Below, piece by piece: positions 8,377 to 24,043 of a DNA stretch of 60,939 bases. The translations under genes were made by a program, and so were the position numbers. Numbering within the stretch: position 1 is the first letter of the stretch; every line of letters begins with the position of its first letter. This DNA comes from Ferrovaceae bacterium (GTDB lineage: Bacteria; Pseudomonadota; Gammaproteobacteria; Burkholderiales; Ferrovaceae), in assembly GCA_027311025.1 (NCBI GenBank), contig DAICZS010000009.1:1-60939 (forward strand), read 5' to 3'. The notes beneath the pieces were generated by a model, which made no database searches, had not been told where the DNA came from, and saw only the letters and a list, made by a program, of their open reading frames with translations.

Positions 8377-8500
8377 CGTTGATTTTCCAATCAACGCCTG
8401 CAAGGGCAAACCCGTCGAAAGGCGGGGACGCAAAGCTTCCGGGCTAATGGACCAAGGTCCTAATCGACGACATGTCGAGTGCCAGCGGGGTCGCCAGGCG
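8377..8500 (+). promoter_or_regulatory. GEMM-class riboswitch, cyclic di-GMP-I type, in the motB leader
   Basis: The class I c-di-GMP aptamer core is readable: AGGGCAAACC, the P2 stem CCCGTC/GGCGGG (8411-8416 with 8421-8426) closed by a GAAA tetraloop, then GGGACGCAAAGC and CTTCCGGGCTAA, and later AGCGGGG. The outer stem P1 pairs CGCCTG (8395-8400) with CAGGCG (8495-8500). The GAAA loop would dock into P3 as in the Vibrio Vc2 structure. A separate 8-bp hairpin (8377-8396) precedes P1 and overlaps its first bases. No poly-T terminator is visible before motB, so control at translation is more likely than transcription termination. A cGAMP-selective GEMM-Ib variant cannot be excluded by eye. Confidence 0.92.
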
Positions 8501-12420: not shown

Positions 12421-12513
12421 TCATGAAATAAAAACGTTCCGGACCATTCTACAACATCATGGGTTTCAGGCCGTGTCGTGGCTTTGACAGAATGCCTTAC
12501 AATGGGGCACATC

Positions 12514-13137
12514 ATGCATGCGCCAGGCACTACAACCGCCCTCACCCCACAACGCTGCCCCTGGTGCGGTGATGACCCGCTTTACGTGGCCTACCACGAT
12601 ACCGAGTGGGGCATGCCACAGCATGACGACCGTGTCCTGTTTGAATTTCTGCTGCTGGAAGGTGCTCAGGCAGGCCTTTCCTGGATAACCGTGCTGCGCA
12701 AACGCGACAATTATCGCCGCGCTTTTTCCGGATTCGATGCCCACCGCGTGGCCGCCTTTGGCGAAGCCGAGACGGCGCGCCTGATGGCTGATCCCGGGAT
12801 CATCCGCAATCGTGCCAAAATTGCTGCCGCCATCGGCAACGCCCGGGCCTATCTCGAGGTCCAGGATCAATTTGGCAGTTTTGACCGTTATCTGTGGTCG
12901 TTTGTGGATGGCGTCCCGATACAGAATGCGTGGCAACACCCTGGCGAAGTCCCGGCGCAAACCGCCCTGTCTGAAAGGCTCTCCAGGGATCTGCGCGCGC
13001 GCAACTTCAAGTTCGTGGGGTCCGCCATTTGTTATGCCTTCATGCAGGCCGTCGGTCTCGTCAACGATCACTTGCGCACCTGCCACCGACATGCCGCACT
13101 CAGCGCGCCAGCAACAGGTAGAGCAGCAGGCCGTTGA
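12514..13137 (+). CDS. tag: DNA-3-methyladenine glycosylase I
   Basis: Tag removes 3-methyladenine from alkylated DNA to start base excision repair. The sequence shows CPWCGDDPLYVAYHDTEWG, then LFEFLLLEGAQAGLSWITVL with the helix-hairpin-helix region after it. The C-terminal H-x3-C (DHLRTCHRH) completes the Cys/His zinc site known from E. coli Tag. About 207 residues from ATG 12514, which has GGGG upstream; GTG 12478 and ATG 12502 are alternatives. The 3' end overlaps the convergent kinase/phosphatase gene by 38 bases. Confidence 0.93.
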   Translation: MHAPGTTTALTPQRCPWCGDDPLYVAYHDTEWGMPQHDDRVLFEFLLLEGAQAGLSWITVLRKRDNYRRAFSGFDAHRVAAFGEAETARLMADPGIIRNRAKIAAAIGNARAYLEVQDQFGSFDRYLWSFVDGVPIQNAWQHPGEVPAQTALSERLSRDLRARNFKFVGSAICYAFMQAVGLVNDHLRTCHRHAALSAPATGRAAGR

Positions 13138-14779
13138 GCACCAGCGACAGGACCACACCGAGTTTGAGCAACAACGCGGGATCGCGTTTCAGAAGCGGCA
13201 TTTTGCGCGGAACGCGCAGCCGGCCATGCCCCCCCTTTTCCAGCGCCAACAAAAACGCCTCGATGGTTTCAAACCGGTCTTCGGGTTCGCGAGCCACGGC
13301 CTTCAACAGGATGGCTTCCAGCCATTCGGGAACGTCGGGACGATAACGCGTGGGACTTAACGGATCGCCAAAACGCGGATGTTGAAATGGTTCGATCTCG
13401 CCATAGGGAAACTTGCGTGTCAGCAATTCATACAAGGTCACTCCGCAGGCGTACAGATCTGAAACTTCTGAAGCCGGCTTTCCGGCATGCAGTTCTGGGG
13501 CCATGTAACTTGGGGTTCCGGGATTGTTGATCTCACCGAAATCCTGACCGTCAGAAGCAGCAACCCCCAGATCCAGTATGCGCAAATGGCCGTCCGCGCC
13601 CAGATGGATGTTGTCCGGTTTGATGTCCCGGTGGACAATGGACAGGCGGTGCAGCGCGCCAAGCCCCTTGAGCAGACGCATGCCGATGTCTGCGGTTTCT
13701 GCTGACGAAAAATGCCGCCCCTGACGCAACCATTGGCCCAGGGTTGCCCCTTCGTGCCAGGACATCAGGTAGTACAGATAACTGCGTCCCGGAGATGGCA
13801 TCACCTGCGGGAAAGCGGCGTCGATGACTCTCCGGGCCAGCCACTCTTCGTGCGCCAGGGCTGAAGCATCCGCACCGTCGCAACCCTGGCGCAAGGTTTT
13901 CAACACACAATGCTGCCCGGTAGCCTCAATGCGCGCTTCATATAACACCGTCACCCTGGACTCATGAAGCACCCTGATGATGGCAATGCCATCCAGTGTA
14001 TCGCCCGGCTTGAGGCGGTCCGGAATGGGCAGCCGCGCGGTGCTGGCGAGCGCATCCCGCAATTTCGCTGCGGGAACGACCAGGACGTTCACTACCAGCG
14101 CGGTGCAATTATCCTGGCTGCCCTCGTTCACTGCAGCCAGCGTGAGGTGCGACGCTGCATCCTGCGAATCGCCATGACTGAGCAGCGCATTGCGCATGCG
14201 CCCTTCACCCAGGCTGTTCCACACGCCATCCGAACAAATCAGGAATCGGTCTCCCGCTGCCAGCTCACCATCGCTATAGTCCACCAGCAGTTGGGCATCC
14301 AGCCCCACGGCTCGCGACAACACCGTATTCAGTTCGGGATGATCCCACACGTGATCCTGCGTCAAGCGCCGCAACTCGCCGTCACGAAACCGGTAGATGC
14401 GTGAATCGCCCACATGCGCAACATGGTAACGCCCCCCGCGCAGCAGCAGCACCGAGAGCGTCGTGGCCATGCCAGCATTGTGGCGCAACGACTGGTTTTG
14501 GGAGAACAGCCAGCGGTTGAGCGACTGGATGACCGTGTCCAGCGCATGAAACACGCTCCAGGTGTCCGGCGTTGCGTAGTAGTCTGCCAGCAATCCGCGC
14601 ACCACATACTCCGAGGCTTCGTTGGCGTTGCTATGCCCTCCCACGCCATCTGCCACGGCCGCCAACAATCCCTTGTTTTCAAGTTCGGGTCCATCCGGCG
14701 TGACGGCCCCACAAAAATCCTCATTGCGCGGCCGCGGCCCGGTCAGCGAACTAAAGCCCAGTGTAAACGCCGAAGTCAT
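13100..14779 (-). CDS. PP2C-type phosphatase fused to a Ser/Thr protein kinase, C-terminally membrane-anchored
   Basis: About 559 residues. The N-terminal half is a PP2C metal-dependent phosphatase: RNED (residues 18-21), VADGVGGHSN, HVGDSRIYRF, CSDGVW and QDNCTALVV supply the metal-binding acids. The C-terminal half is a protein kinase: the lysine of VLKTL, catalytic loop IVHRDIKPDN, DLG in place of DFG, and GTPSYMAPEL. The glycine-rich loop is degenerate (RVLHESRVTVLYEA). The last 25 residues form one hydrophobic helix, a tail anchor. ATG 14779 is used; GTG 14830 would overlap narK by 32 bases. It is the last gene of the nitrate assimilation operon. A similar kinase lies in the P. aeruginosa nirB/nasA locus (PA1782), but its role there is unclear. 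Confidence 0.88.
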   Translation of the reverse strand: MTSAFTLGFSSLTGPRPRNEDFCGAVTPDGPELENKGLLAAVADGVGGHSNANEASEYVVRGLLADYYATPDTWSVFHALDTVIQSLNRWLFSQNQSLRHNAGMATTLSVLLLRGGRYHVAHVGDSRIYRFRDGELRRLTQDHVWDHPELNTVLSRAVGLDAQLLVDYSDGELAAGDRFLICSDGVWNSLGEGRMRNALLSHGDSQDAASHLTLAAVNEGSQDNCTALVVNVLVVPAAKLRDALASTARLPIPDRLKPGDTLDGIAIIRVLHESRVTVLYEARIEATGQHCVLKTLRQGCDGADASALAHEEWLARRVIDAAFPQVMPSPGRSYLYYLMSWHEGATLGQWLRQGRHFSSAETADIGMRLLKGLGALHRLSIVHRDIKPDNIHLGADGHLRILDLGVAASDGQDFGEINNPGTPSYMAPELHAGKPASEVSDLYACGVTLYELLTRKFPYGEIEPFQHPRFGDPLSPTRYRPDVPEWLEAILLKAVAREPEDRFETIEAFLLALEKGGHGRLRVPRKMPLLKRDPALLLKLGVVLSLVLNGLLLYLLLAR

Positions 14780-14798: not shown

Positions 14799-16013
14799 TC
14801 AAATCCGTGCGCTGGTGAGACTTGCGGCACCCCAGGTGGTGCGCCAGCGCGTCTTGACCGCTGTCAACCCCACCAGCGCAATCACAGCCAGCATGGCGAA
14901 TATGTAGAACCCGGTCATGTAACTTCCAGTCATCTGCCTAGAGTACCCCAGGCTGGAGGCCAGATAAAATCCGCCCACGCCACCGGCCATCCCCACCAGC
15001 CCCGTCATGACCCCAATTTCCCTGCGAAAGCGTTGGGGCACCAGTTGAAACACGGCACCGTTTCCCATTCCGAGCGAAAGCATGGCCACGACAAATCCTG
15101 CCAATGCCATCCAGGATTGCGGCAGGCCCACCCCCACGACGGACAGTGCTCCCGCAGCCACCAGATAAACCACGCTGAGCAACCGGATGCCGCCGAAACG
15201 GTCTGCCAGTGCCCCGCCCATGGGACGCACCAATGATCCGGCGAACACGCAAGCCGCGGTAAAGAAACCGGCGGTCCTGGGATCCAGGCCGTACTGCGTG
15301 TTGAAGTAGATGGTGAGCGACGAAGCCAGGCCCACAAAGCCGCCAAAGGTGACCGAATAGAAGAACATGAACCACCAGGCATCCTTGTCCTTCAACACCA
15401 GCAGGTATTCCGACAGGCGCTTGGGTGGCGGCGCGTTGGGCGCATCCCTGGCCATGATCACATAGGCCAGCAGCACCAGGCTGAGCGGGATCAGCGCCAG
15501 TCCGAACACATTGCTCCAGCCAAAGGCGGTTGCCAGTGAGGGTGCGAAAAGCGCCGCGAAGACGGTTCCCGAATTTCCTGCCCCGGCAATGCCCAGCGCC
15601 TTGCCCTGATGCTCAGGAGGGTACCAGCGCGAGGCCAAAGGCAAGGCCACGGCAAAGGATGCGCCGGCCACGCCGAGAAACAACCCCAATACCAGGACCT
15701 GTTCATAGCTGTGGATGCCCCACCACCAGGCCGCAAACAGGGCGACGATCACGACGACCTGACCGATGATGCCGGTGATGCGCGCATTGAGGTGATCCAC
15801 CATGATTCCCAACACCAGTCGCAGGGCGGCACCCGACAACACCGGTGTCGCCACCATCAATCCCTTCTGGACATGATCGAGATTGAGGTCCCTGGAAATC
15901 TGCACGCCCAACGGACCCAGAATGACCCAGACCATGAATGCCAGATCGAAGTAGAGAAACGCTGCAATGAGCGAAGGCGTGTGTCCAGCTTGCAAGAAAG
16001 ATTTTCGATCCAT
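14799..16013 (-). CDS. narK: Nitrate/nitrite transporter, NarK/NasA family MFS
   Basis: A 404-residue twelve-helix MFS protein importing nitrate for the assimilatory enzymes encoded just upstream. The N-terminal region FDLAFMVWVILGPLGVQIS and the segments PLASRWYPPEHQGKALGIAG and AGNSGTVFAALFAP match the nitrate-signature helices of the family. ATG 16013 has AGGAG nine bases upstream. It follows nasA by 28 bases and precedes the kinase/phosphatase by 19, so it is part of one operon. Function in uptake rather than nitrite export is inferred from context. Confidence 0.92.
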   Translation of the reverse strand: MDRKSFLQAGHTPSLIAAFLYFDLAFMVWVILGPLGVQISRDLNLDHVQKGLMVATPVLSGAALRLVLGIMVDHLNARITGIIGQVVVIVALFAAWWWGIHSYEQVLVLGLFLGVAGASFAVALPLASRWYPPEHQGKALGIAGAGNSGTVFAALFAPSLATAFGWSNVFGLALIPLSLVLLAYVIMARDAPNAPPPKRLSEYLLVLKDKDAWWFMFFYSVTFGGFVGLASSLTIYFNTQYGLDPRTAGFFTAACVFAGSLVRPMGGALADRFGGIRLLSVVYLVAAGALSVVGVGLPQSWMALAGFVVAMLSLGMGNGAVFQLVPQRFRREIGVMTGLVGMAGGVGGFYLASSLGYSRQMTGSYMTGFYIFAMLAVIALVGLTAVKTRWRTTWGAASLTSARI

Positions 16014-16041: not shown

Positions 16042-18891
16042 CTACAAAATATGTTGTGCCGGTTGCGACTGCCCTGACACAAGGCGCTTCAATTCGGGCA
16101 GGCAGGACCCGCAGTTCGTGCCACACTGAAGCGTCTGCTGCAACGCCTGCAGTCGTTGTGCTGCGGTTTCTGCCACCACTGCCTGCAATGCCGTGACAAT
16201 GGCCTGCTCGGAAACGTTGAAGCAGCTGCAGACCACCTTTCCACGAGCCAGGGGTTTTCCCGGCGGAACTTTTCCGGGGGTCAGCAACGCACGCCCCAGA
16301 CCTTCCACGGAAGCGCCGCTCTCGAGGTAATCCTGCAACCAGGAAGCCGCGGCCACCTGGGCTGTTTCGCCGGACACGAGCACGGCCGCGAGTTTTCCGT
16401 GCAACGCGCCGGTCACGCCGATGCGAATCAAACGGCTGATGCCGCGACGCCTGTCCTGATAGCGCAACACCCCGGGTTCGCCGGCATGCAGTCCCAGCAC
16501 TGCCTCAATGGCATTGCGCGTGGACTCGGGTGCCGGATCGTAATCGGCGATTCTCAACAACACGCCCACGGTCGCTTCATGGTCCTGCGTTTCATGGCCA
16601 AACAACACACAGCTGCCGAAGGCAAAGCCGGCCATGTGCGCACGCAACGACATTCGGGTTGTCAGTGCCGTGTGCTGCGGCATCCACGCAAAAGCCGTCA
16701 GGCGCCAGGGCAGCTCGGCCTTGAGGATCTTGATGGCGGCATGCTTGAGTTCGGGTTGCCCCGAATCGGCATCAATGGCAGGCAGCGTCAGGGTGTTGAC
16801 ACCAAACCCTGCAGCCCCCCCTGCCTGTCCGGCCACCGATTCCTCACCCCAATGCATGGCCACGAAGGCCTGCATGGGCGCCACTTCTTCCGAAGGCTGG
16901 AGTGGCAATACCTGGCTGCCACGACGACTGGTGAGATGAACCAGATCCCCTGCCTGCAGGTTCATGCGCGCACAGTCCGTTGGAGAAATTTGCACCACGG
17001 GTTCGGGGGCATGGGCATACAGCCGCGCCAGAGTACCGGTACGGCTCATGCCATGCCACTGATCGCGCAGCCGCCCTGTTGTCAGCGTAAAGGGATAGCG
17101 CGCATCTGCAGGCTCTGCAACGGCGTGATAGGGCGCTGCCACAAATCTTGCGCGCCCGTTGGCCGTGGCAAACACACCATCCTCGTAGAGCCTTGCCTTT
17201 CCAGACAGGGCACCTGACGGCATGGGCCACTGTTGTGGTCCATGCGTTTCGAGAAGGCCATAGGACAAACCGGTGATGTCCAGGTCGCGCCCGGCCGTGC
17301 TGGCCCGATGTTCCAACCAGATGGACTCCGGACTGTCATAGGGAAACAATGATTTTCCAGAGCGTGTGGCACGTTCGAGCAGCTTTTCCATGCGTTGCCC
17401 CACTGCCACGGCAATGGCCCAGTCATGGCGCGCCTGACCGAAGGGCGCTACTGCAGGCAGTACCCGGCTGATGCGGCGTTCTGAATTGGTGACGGTGCCT
17501 TCCTTTTCTGCCCAGGTGGTGGCTGGCAGCAAGACATCCGCAAACGGCACGGTGGCCGTATTGCGATAGGCTTCCTGCACCACCACGAATTCTGCCCGCG
17601 CCAGGGCCTCATGCACGGCCCCCTGGTTTGGCAGGGATTGCGCGGGATTGGTGCAGACAACCCAGATGGCCTTGAGCGAGCCGCCTCGCAAGGCTTCGAA
17701 AAGGGGAACGGCCGTCAAACCGGGCTGCTCAGGAACCGACGCCACATCCCACAGTTCCGCCACTTCAGCCCGATGTCGGGGATCAGCAAGGTTGCGGTGA
17801 GCCGACAGCAGGTTGGCCATGCCGCCCACCTCACGCCCCCCCATGGCGTTGGGTTGACCCGTCAGGGAGAAGGGACCGGCACCGGGCTTTCCAATCTGGG
17901 CAGTGGCCAGATGCAGGTTGATGAGCGTGGCATTATTTGCCGAACCCGAAGTGGATTGATTGAGCCCCTGGCAATACAGTGAAAGCGTGGCTTCTGATTG
18001 CGCAAACCATCTTGCCGCCTCGCGCAGGTCTTCTTCGCGGATGCCGCAGCACTGAGCGACGGCGCGTGGCGTGAATTCGGCCACCGTGTTTCTCAACGCC
18101 TCGAATCCTTCGGTATGTGCGTCAATGTAGTGCCGATCAACCCACCCTTCCCACAACATGACGTGCAGCATGCCGTGATGCAACGCCACGTCCGTTCCAG
18201 GCGCAATTCTCAAGAACAGGTCGGCGCTTTGGGCAGTGTCCGTCCAGCGCGGGTCCACCACGATCAACTTCATTGCCGGGTTCCTGGCACGCGCAGCTTC
18301 GATGCGTCGAAACAACACCGGATGCGCATAGGCCGTATTTGACCCGGAAATGAAGATGACCTGGGCTTGCTCAATGTCCTCGTAACTACAGGGCGGTGCA
18401 TCAGCCCCCAGCGTCTGCTTGTACCCCGCAACGGCACTGGACATGCACAGTCGCGAATTGGTGTCGATGTTGTTTGTTCCGATCAGGCCCTTGGCGAGCT
18501 TGTTGAACACATAATAGTCTTCCGTCAGGAGCTGTCCGGACACATAAATGCCGACGGCATCAGGGCCGTCACGGCGAATGATTTCCGCAAGGCGCTGCGC
18601 CACGGCATCCAGTGCCGTATCCCATTCCACGACACGACGGGCAGACGAGCGCTCATTGCGCATCTCGGGGTGGCTTGCGCGAACCTGTTCGTACACATGG
18701 GGCTGTGCCGTCAGGTGAAGCGTGGCGCCTTTGCTGCATAAACGCCCGAAATTAGCGGGGTGTTCGGGGTCGCCGCGCACGCCCGTGATGCGTTGCACCC
18801 CTGTGGCATCGGGTGCAGACTCGATCAGCATTCCGCAGCCCACACCGCAATAGCAGCAGGTGCTGCGCGTCACTTGCGATGCGCCGTTCAT
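16042..18891 (-). CDS. nasA: Assimilatory nitrate reductase, molybdopterin catalytic subunit with C-terminal BFD domain
   Basis: A 949-residue cytoplasmic enzyme reducing nitrate to nitrite. The N-terminus holds the [4Fe-4S] motif CCYCGVGCGM...GRLCSKG. The molybdopterin-binding core follows, with VVDPRWTDTAQSADLFLRIA and CQGLNQSTSGSANNATLINL. The dinucleotide-binding C-terminal region has TLTTGRLRDQWHGMSRTG. The final 80 residues contain a BFD-type [2Fe-2S] motif, CSCFNV...CGTNCGSC, probably the electron entry point. Its ATG overlaps the nirD stop by four bases (ATGA). Confidence 0.95.
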   Translation of the reverse strand: MNGASQVTRSTCCYCGVGCGMLIESAPDATGVQRITGVRGDPEHPANFGRLCSKGATLHLTAQPHVYEQVRASHPEMRNERSSARRVVEWDTALDAVAQRLAEIIRRDGPDAVGIYVSGQLLTEDYYVFNKLAKGLIGTNNIDTNSRLCMSSAVAGYKQTLGADAPPCSYEDIEQAQVIFISGSNTAYAHPVLFRRIEAARARNPAMKLIVVDPRWTDTAQSADLFLRIAPGTDVALHHGMLHVMLWEGWVDRHYIDAHTEGFEALRNTVAEFTPRAVAQCCGIREEDLREAARWFAQSEATLSLYCQGLNQSTSGSANNATLINLHLATAQIGKPGAGPFSLTGQPNAMGGREVGGMANLLSAHRNLADPRHRAEVAELWDVASVPEQPGLTAVPLFEALRGGSLKAIWVVCTNPAQSLPNQGAVHEALARAEFVVVQEAYRNTATVPFADVLLPATTWAEKEGTVTNSERRISRVLPAVAPFGQARHDWAIAVAVGQRMEKLLERATRSGKSLFPYDSPESIWLEHRASTAGRDLDITGLSYGLLETHGPQQWPMPSGALSGKARLYEDGVFATANGRARFVAAPYHAVAEPADARYPFTLTTGRLRDQWHGMSRTGTLARLYAHAPEPVVQISPTDCARMNLQAGDLVHLTSRRGSQVLPLQPSEEVAPMQAFVAMHWGEESVAGQAGGAAGFGVNTLTLPAIDADSGQPELKHAAIKILKAELPWRLTAFAWMPQHTALTTRMSLRAHMAGFAFGSCVLFGHETQDHEATVGVLLRIADYDPAPESTRNAIEAVLGLHAGEPGVLRYQDRRRGISRLIRIGVTGALHGKLAAVLVSGETAQVAAASWLQDYLESGASVEGLGRALLTPGKVPPGKPLARGKVVCSCFNVSEQAIVTALQAVVAETAAQRLQALQQTLQCGTNCGSCLPELKRLVSGQSQPAQHIL

Positions 18892-19238
18892 GGCGCACCT
18901 GTAAGTTCCGCCTTGCTAAGATACACCTGCCCGTTTTTCACCATGACCGACAGCCGTTTCGCACAACCGACATCCGGTGCCACGGCCTCACCGCTGTCGA
19001 GTTCGATGTTCCACCCATGCAGGGGACAGGTGACGCGATGGCCGTGCACGATGCCCTGGGACAGTGGCCCTCCCTTGTGTGGACAACGATCGCGCAGGGC
19101 AAACACACCTTGATCTTCCGTACGGAATAGCGCAACCGGGCCGATCGCCGCACCTTCCACCACGCGCGCCCCCAGCATGGGAATGTCTTCCAGTGCCAGA
19201 ACGGCAATCCATGTTTCCCGGGTTTCCACGAGGCTCAT
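18888..19238 (-). CDS. nirD: Nitrite reductase [NAD(P)H] small subunit
   Basis: A 116-residue Rieske-like subunit of the cytoplasmic NADH-nitrite reductase, paired with NirB. The Rieske ligands are intact: CPHKGG and CPLHGW. Many NirD proteins lack these ligands, so this one may hold a [2Fe-2S] cluster. It overlaps nirB upstream and nasA downstream by four bases each (ATGA), indicating tight translational coupling. Confidence 0.94.
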   Translation of the reverse strand: MSLVETRETWIAVLALEDIPMLGARVVEGAAIGPVALFRTEDQGVFALRDRCPHKGGPLSQGIVHGHRVTCPLHGWNIELDSGEAVAPDVGCAKRLSVMVKNGQVYLSKAELTGAP

Positions 19239-21694
19239 GACAGGGCTCCTTCTGCACTCGTGGCAAGCCGTACCGACTGAAACTGTTTCCAGTCCACCCC
19301 GGCCGCTTCCTGTGCCTTCCAGGGATCAGGTGCGCCGCGCAAGGCAAACAGCAACCGCTCAAACAGGGCGCGCCGCCCCTCGGCATCGTTGACGATGCGC
19401 TGGCGAATCACCTCCATGCCCACGCGCGACACGTAGTGCACCGTGCGCTCCAGATACCAACCCTCCTCGCGGTACAGTTGCAGAAACGCCCCGGAGTATT
19501 CCTTCACTTCATCGTCCGTCCTGACCTTGCACAGATACTGGGCCACTTCGGTCTTGATGCCGCCATTGCCGGCCACGTAAATTTCCCAGCCCGAATCCAC
19601 GCCAATCACGCCCACGTCCTTGATGCCCGCCTCCGCGCAATTGCGCGGACAACCCGACACTGCCAGCTTGACCTTGTGCGGCGAGTACATGCCGAACAGC
19701 ATTTTTTCCAGGTCGACGCCCATCTTCATGGACGACTGCGTGCCAAACCGGCAATGCTCGTCACCGACGCACGTTTTGACCGTACGGATGGATTTTCCAT
19801 AGGCATGGCCGGAGGGCATGTCGAGATCCTTCCACACGGCAGGCAGGTCTTCCTTGCGAATCCCCAGCAAGTCAATGCGTTGTCCGCCGGTGATCTTGAC
19901 GGTGGGCACGTTGAACTTCTCCGCCACATCCGCAATCCGGCGCAATTCCGCCGGATTGGTGAGCCCGCCCCACATGCGCGGCACCACGGAATAAGTGCCA
20001 TCTTTCTGGATGTTGGCATGGGCACGCTCATTGATGAACCGCGACTGCGGATCGTCGGCAGCCTCGTGGGGCCAGGTGGAAATCAGGTAATAGTTGAGTG
20101 CCGGCCTGCAGCTTGCGCATCCGTTGGGCGTGCGCCACTCCATGAACTGGCGCACTTCCTGTTGCGACAGCAGGTGGTGTTCACGAATGGATTTCCGTAC
20201 TTCGTCATGCGAGTGGTCCGTGCAACCGCACAGGGCCTTTTTTGTCGGCGTGTCGGAGTAGTCGGTGCCCAGAACGTTCATCAGGATCTGTTCCACCAAC
20301 CCGGTGCAGGAGCCGCAAGACCCGCTGGCCTTGGTGCACTTGCGCACGTCCTCCAGGGTGAACAGGCCCTGCTCCTGGATGGCCTTGACGATGGTGCCTT
20401 TGCTGATTCCATTGCAGCCGCACACTTCGTCCGTATCTGCCATGGCCATGGCTTTGTTGTGGCCTTCATGCCCCACATCGCCGATGTTGTTTTCGCCGAA
20501 CATCAGGGTATCGCGCAGCTCGGCAATTTTCCTGCCCTCGCGCAGCAACTTGAAATACCAGGTGCCGTCTGCCGTATCGCCATACAGGCAGGCGCCCACC
20601 AGATGGTCGTCCTTCAATACCAGTTTCTTGTACACCCCGCCCACCGGGTCGGACAGGGTGATTTCTTCCATGCCATCCCCTCCCATGAATGCTCCAGCGG
20701 AGAAGAGGTCCACGCCCGTCACTTTCAATTTGGTCGAGGTCACCGATCCGGTATAGCGGCCAATGCCCATGAAGGCCAGGTGGTTGGCGCACACCTTGGC
20801 CTGTTCGAAAAGCGGCGCCACGAGTCCATAGGCCATGCCGCGATGGCTGACACATTCCCCCACGGCGTAGATGCGCGGGTCATAGGTCTGGAGCGTATCG
20901 TTGACCAGGATGCCGCGCTGACAGGCCAGTCCTGCAGCCTCCGCGAGGCTTGTGTTGGGGCGTATGCCGGCAGCCATGACCACGAGGTCTGCGGGGATCT
21001 CGCTGCCATCCTGGCAACGCACCGCAGCGACGCGCGTGCCCGCGTCGTTGGCCAGCAGCTCGCTGGTCTGCGTGGACAGCCTGAACTGCAACCCTTTGGC
21101 TTCCAGGGATTGCTGCAGCAGCCCCGCAGCCACGGGGTCCAGCTGCCGCTCCAGCAACCACTCCGCCAGATGGATGACGGTCACGTCCATGCCGCGCAGT
21201 TTCAACCCATTGGCGGCCTCAAGCCCCAGCAAGCCGCCGCCAATGACCACCGCATGGCGGTAATGCTTTGCCGCTTCAATCATGCATTCCGTGTCGTGAA
21301 TGTCGCGATAGGTGATCACTCCAGGAAGGTCTTTTCCGGGAATGGGCAGGATGAAGGGCGAGGAGCCCGTGGCAATCAGAAGCCGGTCATAGTCCTCCAC
21401 GATGCCGTCCGTCGTGATGACCTGGCGTTTGACGCGATCGATGCGACTGACGGTCTTGCCCAGATGCAGGCGAATGCCATTTTCGGCATACCAGTCCAGA
21501 CCGTTGAGGATGATTTCATCCACGGTCTGCTCTCCGGCCAGCACCGGCGAGAGCAGGATGCGGTTGTAATTGGGGTAAGGCTCAGCGCCAAACACCGTGA
21601 TGTCGTACAGCTCCGGGGCAAGCTTGAGCAATTCTTCCAGGGTTCTGATCCCTGCCATACCATTGCCAATCACCGCCAGTTTCATTTTTTTCAT
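19235..21694 (-). CDS. nirB: Nitrite reductase [NAD(P)H] large subunit
   Basis: An 819-residue siroheme enzyme reducing nitrite to ammonium. In order: FAD-binding domain starting MKLAVIGNGMAGIRTLEELL, NADH-binding fold (VVIGGGLLGLEAANGLKLRG), BFD-type [2Fe-2S] region CGCNGISKGT...CGSCTG, and the ferredoxin-like/siroheme halves. The [4Fe-4S]-siroheme ligands are CRFGTQ and CPRNC. ATG 21694 has GGAG eight bases upstream; the downstream ATG 21685 is an alternative. It is the first gene of the nirB-nirD-nasA-narK-kinase operon, with NtrC/sigma-54-like control sites upstream. Confidence 0.95.
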   Translation of the reverse strand: MKKMKLAVIGNGMAGIRTLEELLKLAPELYDITVFGAEPYPNYNRILLSPVLAGEQTVDEIILNGLDWYAENGIRLHLGKTVSRIDRVKRQVITTDGIVEDYDRLLIATGSSPFILPIPGKDLPGVITYRDIHDTECMIEAAKHYRHAVVIGGGLLGLEAANGLKLRGMDVTVIHLAEWLLERQLDPVAAGLLQQSLEAKGLQFRLSTQTSELLANDAGTRVAAVRCQDGSEIPADLVVMAAGIRPNTSLAEAAGLACQRGILVNDTLQTYDPRIYAVGECVSHRGMAYGLVAPLFEQAKVCANHLAFMGIGRYTGSVTSTKLKVTGVDLFSAGAFMGGDGMEEITLSDPVGGVYKKLVLKDDHLVGACLYGDTADGTWYFKLLREGRKIAELRDTLMFGENNIGDVGHEGHNKAMAMADTDEVCGCNGISKGTIVKAIQEQGLFTLEDVRKCTKASGSCGSCTGLVEQILMNVLGTDYSDTPTKKALCGCTDHSHDEVRKSIREHHLLSQQEVRQFMEWRTPNGCASCRPALNYYLISTWPHEAADDPQSRFINERAHANIQKDGTYSVVPRMWGGLTNPAELRRIADVAEKFNVPTVKITGGQRIDLLGIRKEDLPAVWKDLDMPSGHAYGKSIRTVKTCVGDEHCRFGTQSSMKMGVDLEKMLFGMYSPHKVKLAVSGCPRNCAEAGIKDVGVIGVDSGWEIYVAGNGGIKTEVAQYLCKVRTDDEVKEYSGAFLQLYREEGWYLERTVHYVSRVGMEVIRQRIVNDAEGRRALFERLLFALRGAPDPWKAQEAAGVDWKQFQSVRLATSAEGALS

Positions 21695-21715
21695 GACCCG
21701 ATCTCCGAAAGGTAC

Positions 21716-21753
21716 CTCGGCACCTGGAATCGGTGTTCCATTTTCGTGCCGAG
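21716..21753 (-). promoter_or_regulatory. Nested hairpin in the nirB 5' leader
   Basis: Outer arms CTCGGCAC and GTGCCGAG (8 bp, perfect) enclose an inner TGGAA/TTCCA stem with a six-base loop (CACCGA on the minus strand). It would occupy about +3 to +40 of a transcript begun at the sigma-54-like element. ANTAR-type antiterminators (NasR, NasT) act on nitrate-operon leaders with hexaloop hairpins, but the loop here lacks the expected A1/G4 pattern and no poly-U follows. A role in mRNA stability or protein binding is equally possible. Confidence 0.55.
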
Positions 21754-21766
21754 TCACCCCATTCTC

Positions 21767-21782
21767 AGCAAGAATCAGACCT
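21767..21782 (-). promoter_or_regulatory. Candidate sigma-54 (-24/-12) promoter of the nitrate assimilation operon
   Basis: The minus strand reads AGGTCTGATTCTTGCT, with the invariant GG and GC separated by 10 bases and TTGCT matching the -12 half; the CAC of the -24 half is not conserved. The start of transcription would be near 21756. Support comes from the IHF-like and NtrC-like sites at conventional distances upstream. Confidence 0.6.
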
Positions 21783-21811
21783 GTTTTAAAAATTTATTTA
21801 AATTGTTTCCA

Positions 21812-21824
21812 GATCAAGGCATTA
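21812..21824. promoter_or_regulatory. IHF-like binding site upstream of nirB
   Basis: The plus strand reads GATCAAGGCATTA, matching 12 of 13 positions of the IHF consensus WATCARNNNNTTR. It sits next to an AT-rich tract (21785-21807), at about -56 to -68 from the predicted sigma-54 start. This is where IHF bends DNA in NtrC-type promoters. Confidence 0.45.
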
Positions 21825-21857
21825 CAGGTAACCATCCTTTTTCTGGGCGGCTGCCAT

Positions 21858-21892
21858 GCCGCAAATGGGTGCCCGACGCACTGCATGGGTGC
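21858..21892. promoter_or_regulatory. NtrC-like enhancer upstream of nirB
   Basis: The dyad GCACTGCATGGGTGC at 21878-21892 fits GCACY-N5-RGTGC completely. A weaker partner (GCCG, seven bases, then GTGC; 21858-21872) lies 20 bp away centre to centre, about two helical turns. The strong site is at about -122 to -136 from the predicted start. This suggests nitrogen-limitation control; no ntrC gene is in the window. Confidence 0.55.
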
Positions 21893-21904
21893 GTGTCATG
21901 GGCG

Positions 21905-21935
21905 AAAAAAAACCGCCGGGGATTCCGGCGGTTTT
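21905..21935 (-). terminator. Rho-independent terminator after rplQ
   Basis: AAAACCGCCGG and CCGGCGGTTTT form an 11-bp perfect stem with a 5-base loop. Eight A residues on the plus strand give a U8 tail to the minus-strand RNA. It marks the end of the ribosomal protein array. Confidence 0.93.
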
Positions 21936-21964
21936 GGGTGATGGCCTGGGTGACTGAACGGGGC

Positions 21965-22360
21965 TTATGCCTCCGGTGCACCTTCGGCATCGGCCGTCCC
22001 TGCAGGACGATCCAGCAACTCCACCAGCGCCATGGGCGCGTTGTCACCCTGGCGGAAGCCAAACTTGAGAATGCGCAAATAGCCCCCGTTGCGGGTCTGG
22101 TAGCGCGGTCCGAGTTCGTTGAACAGCTTGGTGACCATGTCGCGATCACGCAGCCGGCTGAACGCCAGGCGGCGATTGGCCAGCGAAGGCGCCTTGCCCA
22201 GGGTGATCAGGGGTTCTGCAACACGACGCAGTTCCTTGGCCTTGGGCAGGGTGGTGCGGATCACTTCATGCCGCAACAGTGAATTGGTCATGTTGCGCAG
22301 CATGGCCAGCCGATGGCTGGTGGTGCGGTTCAACTTGCGATTGCTAAGACGGTGACGCAT
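21965..22360 (-). CDS. rplQ: 50S ribosomal protein L17
   Basis: A 131-residue large-subunit protein near the tunnel exit. It begins [20 protein letters not shown], the family signature, and has a short acidic/alanine C-terminal tail. It is the last gene of the alpha operon (rpsM-rpsK-rpsD-rpoA-rplQ), 34 bases after rpoA and followed by a strong terminator. Confidence 0.98.
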
Positions 22361-22394
22361 GATGAATTATCCTTAAGGTTCGATTCGAGCGCGT

Positions 22395-23381
22395 TTAACG
22401 GCGGTCGGTCAGGCCGACAGGGGGCCAGTTTTCCAGCTTCATCCCGAGGGTCAAGCTCTTGGAGGCCAGCACTTCCTTGATTTCGTTGAGCGACTTGCGA
22501 CCCAGGTTCGGGGTCTTCAGCAACTCGGTTTCAGTGCGCTGGATGAGGTCGCCGATGTAATAAATGTTTTCGGCCTTGAGACAGTTCGCCGAGCGAACCG
22601 TCAGTTCAAGGTCATCCACTGGCTGCAGCAAAATGGGATCCACTTGCGGCGCCTTGGTGGCTTCCATCGCCATGGGCGTGCCCTGAAGATCGGCAAACAC
22701 ATTGAGCTGATCCATCAGTACGCGGGCCGCAAAGCGCACGGCTTCTTCCGGCTCAACGGCACCATTGGTTTCGATGTCCATGACCAGCTTGTCAAGGTCG
22801 GTACGCTGCTCAACGCGGGCACTTTCAACGGCATAGCTGACACGGCGCACGGGGCTGAAGGAAGCGTCCAGCTGGATGCCGCCCACTGCACGGGACTCCT
22901 GGTCGATGGCACGCGTGGTGGCAGGCTGATAGCCACGACCCTGCTCGACCTTGATCTGCATGTCCAGCTTGCCACCTGCCGTGAGGTGCGCAATCACATG
23001 TTCAGGATTGATGATTTCCACGTCATGCTGGGCTTCGATGTCGCCTGCAGTCACCACCCCCGGGCCCACCTTGATGAGCTTCAGGACGGTCTCATTATGA
23101 TTGTGCAATTTGAGCACGATCCCCTTGAGGTTGAGCAACAGGTCAACCACGTCTTCCTGAACACCTTCAACGGTCGAGTACTCATGCAGCACACCGGAGA
23201 TCTTGACCTCGGTGGGTGCGAAACCAGGCATGGACGACAACAGAATCCGGCGCAGGGCATTGCCCAGCGTATGGCCATAACCCCGCTCGAACGGCTCCAT
23301 GACTACCTTGGCATAGGTCGGAGATATATTCTGTACTTCGATACTGCGCGGTTTCAAAAACGCATTGGTTTGGCTTTGCAT
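22395..23381 (-). CDS. rpoA: RNA polymerase alpha subunit
   Basis: A 328-residue subunit that dimerises to start RNA polymerase assembly. The N-terminal assembly domain carries [20 protein letters not shown]. The C-terminal domain contains [20 protein letters not shown] and [14 protein letters not shown], which contact UP elements and activators. It lies within the alpha operon, 35 bases after rpsD. Confidence 0.98.
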
Positions 23382-23416
23382 CGTCTGTCCTTGTAACTAA
23401 CTGGAAGGAGGCCCTG

Positions 23417-24043
23417 TTACTTCGAGTACAGTTCCACCACCAGTGATTCGTTGATGGTCGTGGGCAGTTCGCTGCGCTGCGGGCGAGCCTTGAAAACACC
23501 CTTCATGGCCTTGATGTCCACTTCCAGCCATTCAGGGAACCCACGTCCCTCGGCGGCTTCAGTAGCGCCCTTGATGCGCAGCTGAGCCTTGGATTTCTCG
23601 GCGACTTCAACCGCATCGCCTGGGCGCAATTGGTACGACGGAATATTGACCCGCCGGCCATTGACCAGAATGCCATTGTGACGCACGACTTGACGCGCTT
23701 CGGCGCGCGATGCACCAAATCCCATGCGGTACGCCACGTTGTCGAGGCGGCTTTCCAGCGCCTGCAACAGGTTGTCTCCGGTAATCCCGCGAGCCTGATC
23801 AGCCGCGTGATAGGTTCTGCGGAACTGACGCTCAAGGATGCCGTAGATCCGGCGAACCTTCTGTTTGGCGCGCAACTGGCCACCGTACACCGACTGGCGG
23901 CCCTGCTTCTGTCCATGCTGGCCAGGCGCATAAGCGCGGCGCTCTACTGCGCACTTGTCGGTAAAGCATTTCTCTCCCTTGAGGAAGAGTTTCTCGCCTT
24001 CACGGCGACATTGGCGACACTTTGCATCCAGGTTTCTTGCCAC
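23417..24043 (-). CDS. rpsD: 30S ribosomal protein S4, zinc-ligand (C+) form
   Basis: S4 (208 residues) is a primary 16S rRNA binder that starts 30S assembly; in E. coli it also represses the alpha operon. The N-terminus carries Cys9, Cys12, Cys26 and Cys31, the same positions that bind zinc in Thermus S4 and that E. coli S4 lacks. The S4 RNA-binding domain follows ([20 protein letters not shown]). The start codon is GTG at 24043. Confidence 0.98.

Follow-up and report, generated by a model that had tools for sequence, protein, structure and literature searches.

A 60,939-nucleotide contig of a Ferrovaceae bacterium (GenBank DAICZS010000009.1; hereafter the window, meaning this whole stretch of DNA) carries a nitrate assimilation operon that ends in a gene whose product joins a PP2C phosphatase to a protein kinase on a single chain, and the question that this locus raises is what such an enzyme regulates there. 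An initial annotation of the window named the transporter NarK or the reductases as a plausible target. We propose that the fusion is probably a bifunctional regulator, tethered to the membrane and devoted to the nitrogen-oxyanion transporter encoded beside it, here NarK, which it would control through a phospho-switch whose likeliest site is Thr392. (Numbers beginning with L, G, C and f are our own labels for loci, genomes, contigs and families.)

The open reading frame (ORF), Pfam and a structural model bear out the coordinates and domain make-up previously assigned to the gene, namely a PP2C domain, a kinase domain and a single terminal helix (Table 1). The frame begins with an ATG preceded by GGGAGG, and its product matches both PP2C_2 (4.5e-16) and Pkinase (7e-28). 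An AlphaFold2 model built from 46 aligned family members, from whose initial list L071 and L122 were omitted, has a mean pLDDT of 88.8 and shows two folded domains followed by a single helix at the terminus (residues 534-558); it was used in place of a model made from the fusion sequence alone, which had a mean pLDDT of 37.2. The best fold matches that Foldseek found in the PDB are tPphA and PppA for the PP2C half (PstP is also among the matches) and PknB for the kinase half. The PP2C half has the PPM fold and the metal-site and catalytic residues of PP2C/PPM phosphatases (N19, D21, D44, G45, D125, R127, D184 and D223). The kinase half has the kinase fold, the catalytic Lys, the HRD and DFG Asp residues and the APE Glu of Hanks-type kinases (K294, H383-R384-D385, N390, D403 within DLG, and E429 within APE). 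The protein is not a Stk1/PASTA kinase (NF033483 scores 129.1 bits against a cut-off of 450, and no PASTA domain was matched), and no extra sensor domain was found in it.

The catalytic residues are conserved wherever the fusion is linked to a transporter. Specifically, D21, D44, D125, D184 and D223 of the PP2C half, together with D385 and D403 of the kinase half, are kept in 181 of 181 transporter-linked fusions, and K294 is kept in 180 of them; judged by these residues, both halves appear able to work. The one conspicuous departure is that noted in the initial annotation, which correctly described a degenerate Gly-rich loop with the Lys, HRD and DLG retained. GxGxxG is missing, and the stretch that replaces it, HESRVTVLY (residues 272-280), contains no glycine. 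Among 203 aligned relatives this stretch has no glycine in 163, one in 36 and two in 4, and in this alignment loss of the loop is a trait of the family; by this feature the fusion would be at best a divergent member of the Hanks-type kinases. Note that in the predicted structure the hairpin is retained as beta strands 265-273 and 277-284 joined by a short turn.

Of 398 genomes sampled evenly across the phylum, 131 contain the fusion. We examined its neighbors in a phylum sample of 121 loci (120 of at least 150 matches, plus the second copy in the genome from which the window comes, L083), using local profiles built for NarK, a second MFS branch, FNT, cyanase, NirB, NirD, NasA and NrtA. (The 28 listed matches outside the sample are all from family f40, and the count leaves out the fragments L001 and L002.) The second MFS branch also belongs to the NarK family (333.8 bits against the NCBIfam cut-off of 311.7, for L148), and the FNT group corresponds to Pfam Form_Nir_trans (for L083). 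Scoring by script placed a transporter no more than 700 bp from the fusion in 101 of the 121 loci, a count that rises to 102 once L165 is corrected, where an over-long ORF call for the fusion had hidden an FNT gene directly 5'. The 101 comprise 45 FNT, 31 second-branch MFS and 25 NarK genes, 92 of which are directly 5' of the fusion on the same strand. Four further loci have a transporter within 2.5 kb (L108, L110, L112 and L122); in the first three an outer-membrane protein gene separates it from the fusion (Pfam Alginate_exp in L108, by eye in L110 and L112). In a closer set of 80 fusions of the window type, narK is within 700 bp in 73, at about 2 kb in one and at about 6 kb in another, and the remaining five are at contig ends.

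Reductase genes are less constant companions. In the 103 loci whose flanks both extend for at least 6.5 kb, a transporter occurs within 700 bp in 88, whereas a nirB-like gene occurs within 6.5 kb in 54, a nasA-like gene in 42, and either in 55; of the 48 loci with neither, 38 retain the transporter. (These counts score L187 as having a transporter.) Thus, the constant companion of the fusion is the transporter and not the reductases. Of the two targets originally suggested, NarK is strongly supported, by adjacency in three transporter classes and by the tail threonine described below, and the reductases are not. The accompanying remark that similar genes lie in other nitrate loci was right but too narrow, in that the family also occurs in loci with FNT and cyanase. 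The survey of co-occurrence that had been set as the test of the proposal, made here against the transporter, leaves it standing.

How much weight can adjacency bear? A tree of 144 fusions requires two changes of transporter class, the minimum, when loci scored as transporter-less are set aside; the pairing is therefore stable but has few independent origins, and by itself adjacency rests on about three old events retained in many lineages. No single chain joining a transporter to the regulator was found among 11,695 ORFs in loci L001-L203. The genome of the window also encodes a second fusion, 35% identical to the first, in the order FNT-fusion-cyanase (contig C32, L083:8269-11375), with HQD and LRPDN in its kinase half and DGISSSD in its PP2C half. 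A third PP2C match in this genome (C32:14891-15553, a 303-codon frame) is about 13 kb from that locus.

Another line of evidence comes from the C-terminal tail of NarK. The window NarK ends in ...VKTRWRTTWGAASLTSARI, and the motif WRTTW within this tail recurs among fusion-linked NarKs. In a NarK search, close fusion-linked NarKs mostly aligned to the last residue of the window protein and close fusion-free NarKs ended short; the tail motif explains why the alignments of the latter stop where they do. We sampled NarKs first, from the families of three fusion-free genomes and irrespective of the fusion, and asked afterwards whether the fusion was present. (Five more genomes, from five further families, were added after the pattern had been seen, and all five fit it.) WRTTW was found in 36 of 37 NarKs from genomes with the fusion and in 2 of 32 from genomes without it, the exceptions being L225 in the first group and L211 and L212 in the second. 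This tally counts only NarKs with E values of 1e-100 or below (about 350 bits, 50% identity) and scores G773, which has a weak kinase-only match (3e-15), as fusion-free. Among the NarKs that it leaves out are four that have both the fusion and WRTTW (L106 and the distant L142, L155 and L170), three that have the fusion and WTRTW (L100, L101 and L102), five that are fusion-free and lack WRTTW (L213, L214 and L217-L219), two that lack WRTTW in genomes where the only fusion is FNT-linked (L215 and L216), one with broken genes (L220) and one whose tail is out of frame (L264, genome G575); many weaker NarKs were never fetched. A wider count that includes most of these gave WRTTW in 110 of 114 NarKs with the fusion and in 2 of 35 without. 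Moreover, four of the counted genomes have their fusion at a distance from narK, and WRTTW is present in the NarK of each (L221, L253, L254 and L258); in these genomes no transporter class was scored beside the fusion, or its surroundings were not looked at. (In another genome, G496, the fusion, L275, also lies away from narK, beside a gene that we take from its sequence to be moeA, of molybdenum cofactor synthesis. In the fusion-free genome G443, NarK and NirB share one 1270-codon open frame, L224, and the NarK tail reads WRAH.)

Because other NarK columns share the same history, we ranked the columns of the NarK alignment (leaving out L100, L102 and the distant L213-L219). The first Thr of the motif, Thr392, is the best of 406 columns overall, being Thr in 99% of 112 NarKs with the fusion and in 7% of 30 without. 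Within family f46 it again ranks first (10 of 11 versus 0 of 13); within family f45, with only three fusion-bearing rows, it is tied first with seven other columns (3 of 3 versus 0 of 10). We also counted independent pairs on supported branches of a tree made without the tail. (This tree drops L100, L102, L142, L155, L170, L213, L214, L217-L219 and L107, the last being the same gene as L231, and keeps 22 of loci L003-L082.) Of eight pairs, 6.5 differed in the same direction, none in the opposite direction and 1.5 not at all, with a median p of 0.016 (range 0.016-0.063); this was a second look, taken after the five genomes had been added and near-duplicates thinned. Greedy pairing places Thr392 at the top of 403 columns, fitting seven of nine pairs with none opposed; one of the nine involves WRTTW in the fusion-free L211/L212. 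We judge the statistical support for co-variation of Thr392 with the fusion to be good but not overwhelming.

From the domain anatomy, the catalytic residues, the adjacency to transporters and the co-variation of Thr392, we infer the following mechanism. The terminal helix would tether both catalytic domains to the inner face of the membrane beside the transporter, where the kinase half would phosphorylate NarK, likeliest at Thr392 just beyond the last membrane helix in the tail WRTTWG, and the PP2C half would remove the phosphate, such that nitrate uptake could be closed and reopened without new protein synthesis. (We take the C-terminus of NarK to be cytoplasmic, as in the Escherichia coli NarK structures; 4jr9 and 4u4t are among the closest solved relatives of the window NarK, and the alignment stops before the tail.) Phosphorylation would most likely close the transporter: fusion-free NarKs have Ala at the position of Thr392 in 12 of 30 cases and Asp or Glu in none, which suggests that the unphosphorylated state works and that phosphate closes it. 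The input might be ammonium, nitrite or energy state, and, since no extra sensor domain was found in the fusion, ATP, metal, PII-type partners or the state of the transporter itself are candidates for conveying it.

Other explanations can be put forward for the same observations. If the fusion acts on the transporter with WRTTW as a docking or structural site, phosphate going to another part of the transporter or to the fusion alone, then a basic-aromatic, membrane-proximal motif is what one might see, and it is in keeping with such a role that the second Thr tracks the fusion in five of nine pairs and that alignment positions 344, 290 and 396 do so in six of nine each; these three columns also weaken the case for Thr392. 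We nonetheless regard this explanation as rather unlikely, since no other column does as well as the first Thr over all rows, in f46 or in the pairing (in f45 it shares the top rank), since Thr is the type of residue that a Ser/Thr kinase would use, and since 28 of 30 fusion-free NarKs have A, S, R, K, N, Q, L or V in its place. Less probable still is a role in regulating the reductases, or a general nitrogen regulator, with the fusion adjoining transporters only because operons travel whole. A nirB-like or nasA-like gene is indeed nearby in just over half of the well-flanked loci, and horizontal transfer of a nitrate cluster has been suggested for a Ferrovum strain (PMC4886054); against this, most reductase-less loci retain the transporter, the fusion also has FNT and cyanase as partners at sites remote from nitrate genes, and Thr392 tracks the fusion even in the four genomes where the two are unlinked. 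We accordingly ranked the reductases below the transporter as the partner of the fusion.

The least probable of these explanations, to which we give very little credence, is that the kinase half, as a pseudokinase, serves to sense ATP or another ligand and steers only the phosphatase, while another kinase phosphorylates the target. Most of the family lacks the Gly-rich loop, and HQD replaces HRD in 67 of 82 FNT- or MFS5-linked members, both of which would fit an inactive kinase. However, the catalytic Lys, Asp and DFG-Asp are kept in all but one of the 181 transporter-linked members, whereas a transporter-less clade has lost the catalytic Asp in eight of eight with the Lys and DFG-Asp kept; therefore, the constraint seems to be on catalysis. 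The clade in question (L192-L199, each a locus with the fusion at about 7.9-9.7 kb) is divergent and has no transporter scored nearby; its neighbors are inorganic pyrophosphatase in eight of eight (by Pfam for L193) and phosphofructokinase in seven of eight. Along with kinase Asp385, all eight have lost PP2C Asp21, Gly45, Arg127 and Asp184, and they retain Asp44, Asp125, Lys294, Asp403 and the membrane helix, so that these proteins are perhaps double pseudoenzymes.

The reading that we prefer, in which a bifunctional enzyme acts on its neighboring transporter and on NarK through Thr392, has to be weighed against several observations that do not favor it. Two fusion-free NarKs, L211 and L212, have WRTTW, and these group with fusion-linked NarKs. 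Two NarKs from fusion-bearing genomes lack the motif (L225 reads WRMTW and L071 reads WGTTW), the WTRTW of the more distant L100, L101 and L102 departs from it, and genomes G271 and G151 combine an FNT-linked fusion with a distant NarK without it (L215 and L216). An earlier run of the independent-pairs analysis, with fewer rows and too few pairs, was not significant (median p of 0.125). For FNT, we found no residue that distinguishes fusion-bearing from fusion-free genomes: of 80 fusion-free genomes searched (from a total of 267), five have an FNT, four of these being distant (43-44%), and the one close example (L277, 73% identical) has termini like those of fusion-linked FNTs. (For the second MFS branch, one of 80 genomes, a partly different set, provided a fusion-free example.) The threonine does not, then, explain the pairings with FNT and with the second MFS branch. 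In fifteen of the 121 loci no transporter was scored out to 2.5 kb; eight of these belong to the pyrophosphatase clade, L187 has a weaker adjacent MFS match, L101 has NarK at 3.6 kb, the contig of L116 and of L124 ends about 0.5 kb upstream, and in L095, L125 and L168 no transporter was seen nearby. Finally, absence of the Gly-rich loop could reduce kinase activity.

In the window the gene order is nirB-nirD-nasA-narK-fusion, with overlaps of 4 nt between nirB and nirD and between nirD and nasA, a gap of 28 nt between nasA and narK (whose ATG is at 16013) and one of 19 nt between narK and the fusion; therefore, the five genes probably share a single transcript. The fusion is the last gene of the operon, as initially described, the next gene, tag, being convergent. 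Note that the narK product scores 299.7 bits with TIGR00886, slightly below the cut-off of 311.7.

Table 1. Coordinates of the fusion gene, its domains and its neighbors in the window.
Feature	Position	Strand	Evidence or remark
PP2C phosphatase-protein kinase fusion with C-terminal membrane helix, 559 aa	13100..14779	-	Pfam, residues, model, fold match
PP2C domain, about aa 1-235, metal-site residues kept	14075..14779	-	Pfam PP2C_2, residues, tPphA/PppA fold match
Protein kinase domain, about aa 262-517; K294, HRD385, DLG403, APE429	13229..13996	-	Pfam Pkinase, residues, PknB fold match
HESRVTVLY (aa 272-280) in place of Gly-rich loop	13940..13966	-	alignment; model strands
C-terminal membrane helix, aa 534-558	13106..13180	-	model; family hydropathy of last 45 residues
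narK, NarK-family nitrate/nitrite MFS transporter, 404 aa from ATG, directly 5' of fusion	14799..16013	-	TIGR00886, MFS_1
narK codons W390-R-T392-T393-W-G395, tail motif co-varying with fusion; Thr392 codon 14838-14840	14829..14846	-	
nasA-like assimilatory nitrate reductase with C-terminal BFD-like [2Fe-2S] domain	16042..18891	-	
nirD, nitrite reductase small subunit	18888..19238	-	TIGR02378 above cut-off
nirB, nitrite reductase large subunit (start unrefined)	19235..21757	-	TIGR02374 above cut-off
tag	12478-13137	+	convergent neighbor; overlaps 3' end of fusion by 38 nt

The nitrate operon lies 3' of rpoA and rpsD, which are upstream of nirB on the same strand (21757-24043, -). A hairpin followed by eight T can be read by eye between rpsD/rpoA and nirB, and therefore the nitrate genes are probably under their own promoter; an automatic scan of the region upstream of nirB listed no minus-strand terminator or promoter. 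Elsewhere in the window, a match to the c-di-GMP-I-GGC riboswitch aptamer at 8396-8499 (+) scores 59.2 bits, right at the Rfam threshold of 59.

Control of nitrate assimilation in bacteria is known mainly at the levels of transcription and antitermination (NtrC, NasT). If our proposal is correct, bacteria would have in addition a widespread and fast post-translational means of controlling the uptake of nitrate, nitrite and perhaps cyanate, with relevance to ammonium shut-off, nitrite toxicity and the modeling of the nitrogen cycle. It would also provide a simple system, with one enzyme for both activities, one neighboring substrate and one predicted residue, in which to ask how a kinase-phosphatase chooses its direction. 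More broadly, and more tentatively, since we hold it slightly less probable than its opposite, the family may constitute a modular transporter valve, a tail-anchored kinase and phosphatase chain that serves a neighboring transporter of either of two unrelated superfamilies (NarK-type MFS and FNT), with Thr392 as the NarK switch; such a valve would be a separately evolved bacterial counterpart of the plant NRT2.1-CEPH pair discussed below.

Among the open-access papers listed by our searches (subscription journals were mostly outside their reach) we found no kinase or phosphatase acting on bacterial NarK, on NirC or on cyanase or cyanate uptake, and no paper on the fusion-transporter pairing or the tail Thr. 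The domain combination is known but was not found described in this role, and the family is known as an annotation. PA1782 of Pseudomonas aeruginosa is probably the same gene as the fusion, to go by gene order, and the corresponding order transporter-fusion-nirB-nirD-nasA is seen in many of loci L084-L099; P. aeruginosa is absent from the matches listed in a PF13672 control search. PA1782 appears as one of at least three putative Ser/Thr kinases of P. aeruginosa (PMC8560001), is flanked, to judge from the locus numbers, by the nitrate transporter gene PA1783 (nasA) and by nirB, PA1781 (PMC7214821), and figures in another study just as one of the regulated genes listed (PMC4412052); one table pairs PA1783 instead with a gene labeled nasT (PMC5524735). 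The available portions of these four sources give no substrate or function for PA1782.

Among characterized systems, the fusion shares its two folds with the PknB/PstP and StkP-type pairs. In those pairs the opposing activities are encoded together as separate chains, with extracellular PASTA domains; unlike PknB/PstP, the fusion is one chain with a terminal anchor, and no sensor domain was found in it. PppA of type VI secretion, one of its best fold matches, forms with PpkA a kinase-phosphatase pair of separate proteins tied to one membrane machine, and its target differs. The closest solved PP2C by both sequence and fold, the cyanobacterial tPphA, is a stand-alone enzyme that acts on the PII protein. 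There is also a likeness in logic with Arabidopsis, whose NRT2.1 is an MFS transporter as well. Phosphate on its C-terminal Ser501 is reported to inactivate NRT2.1, and the PP2C phosphatase CEPH reverses this (PMC10944928). CEPH is a separate plant PP2C with neither a fused kinase nor a shown homologous motif, and the resemblance is thus one of logic rather than of membership in a common system.

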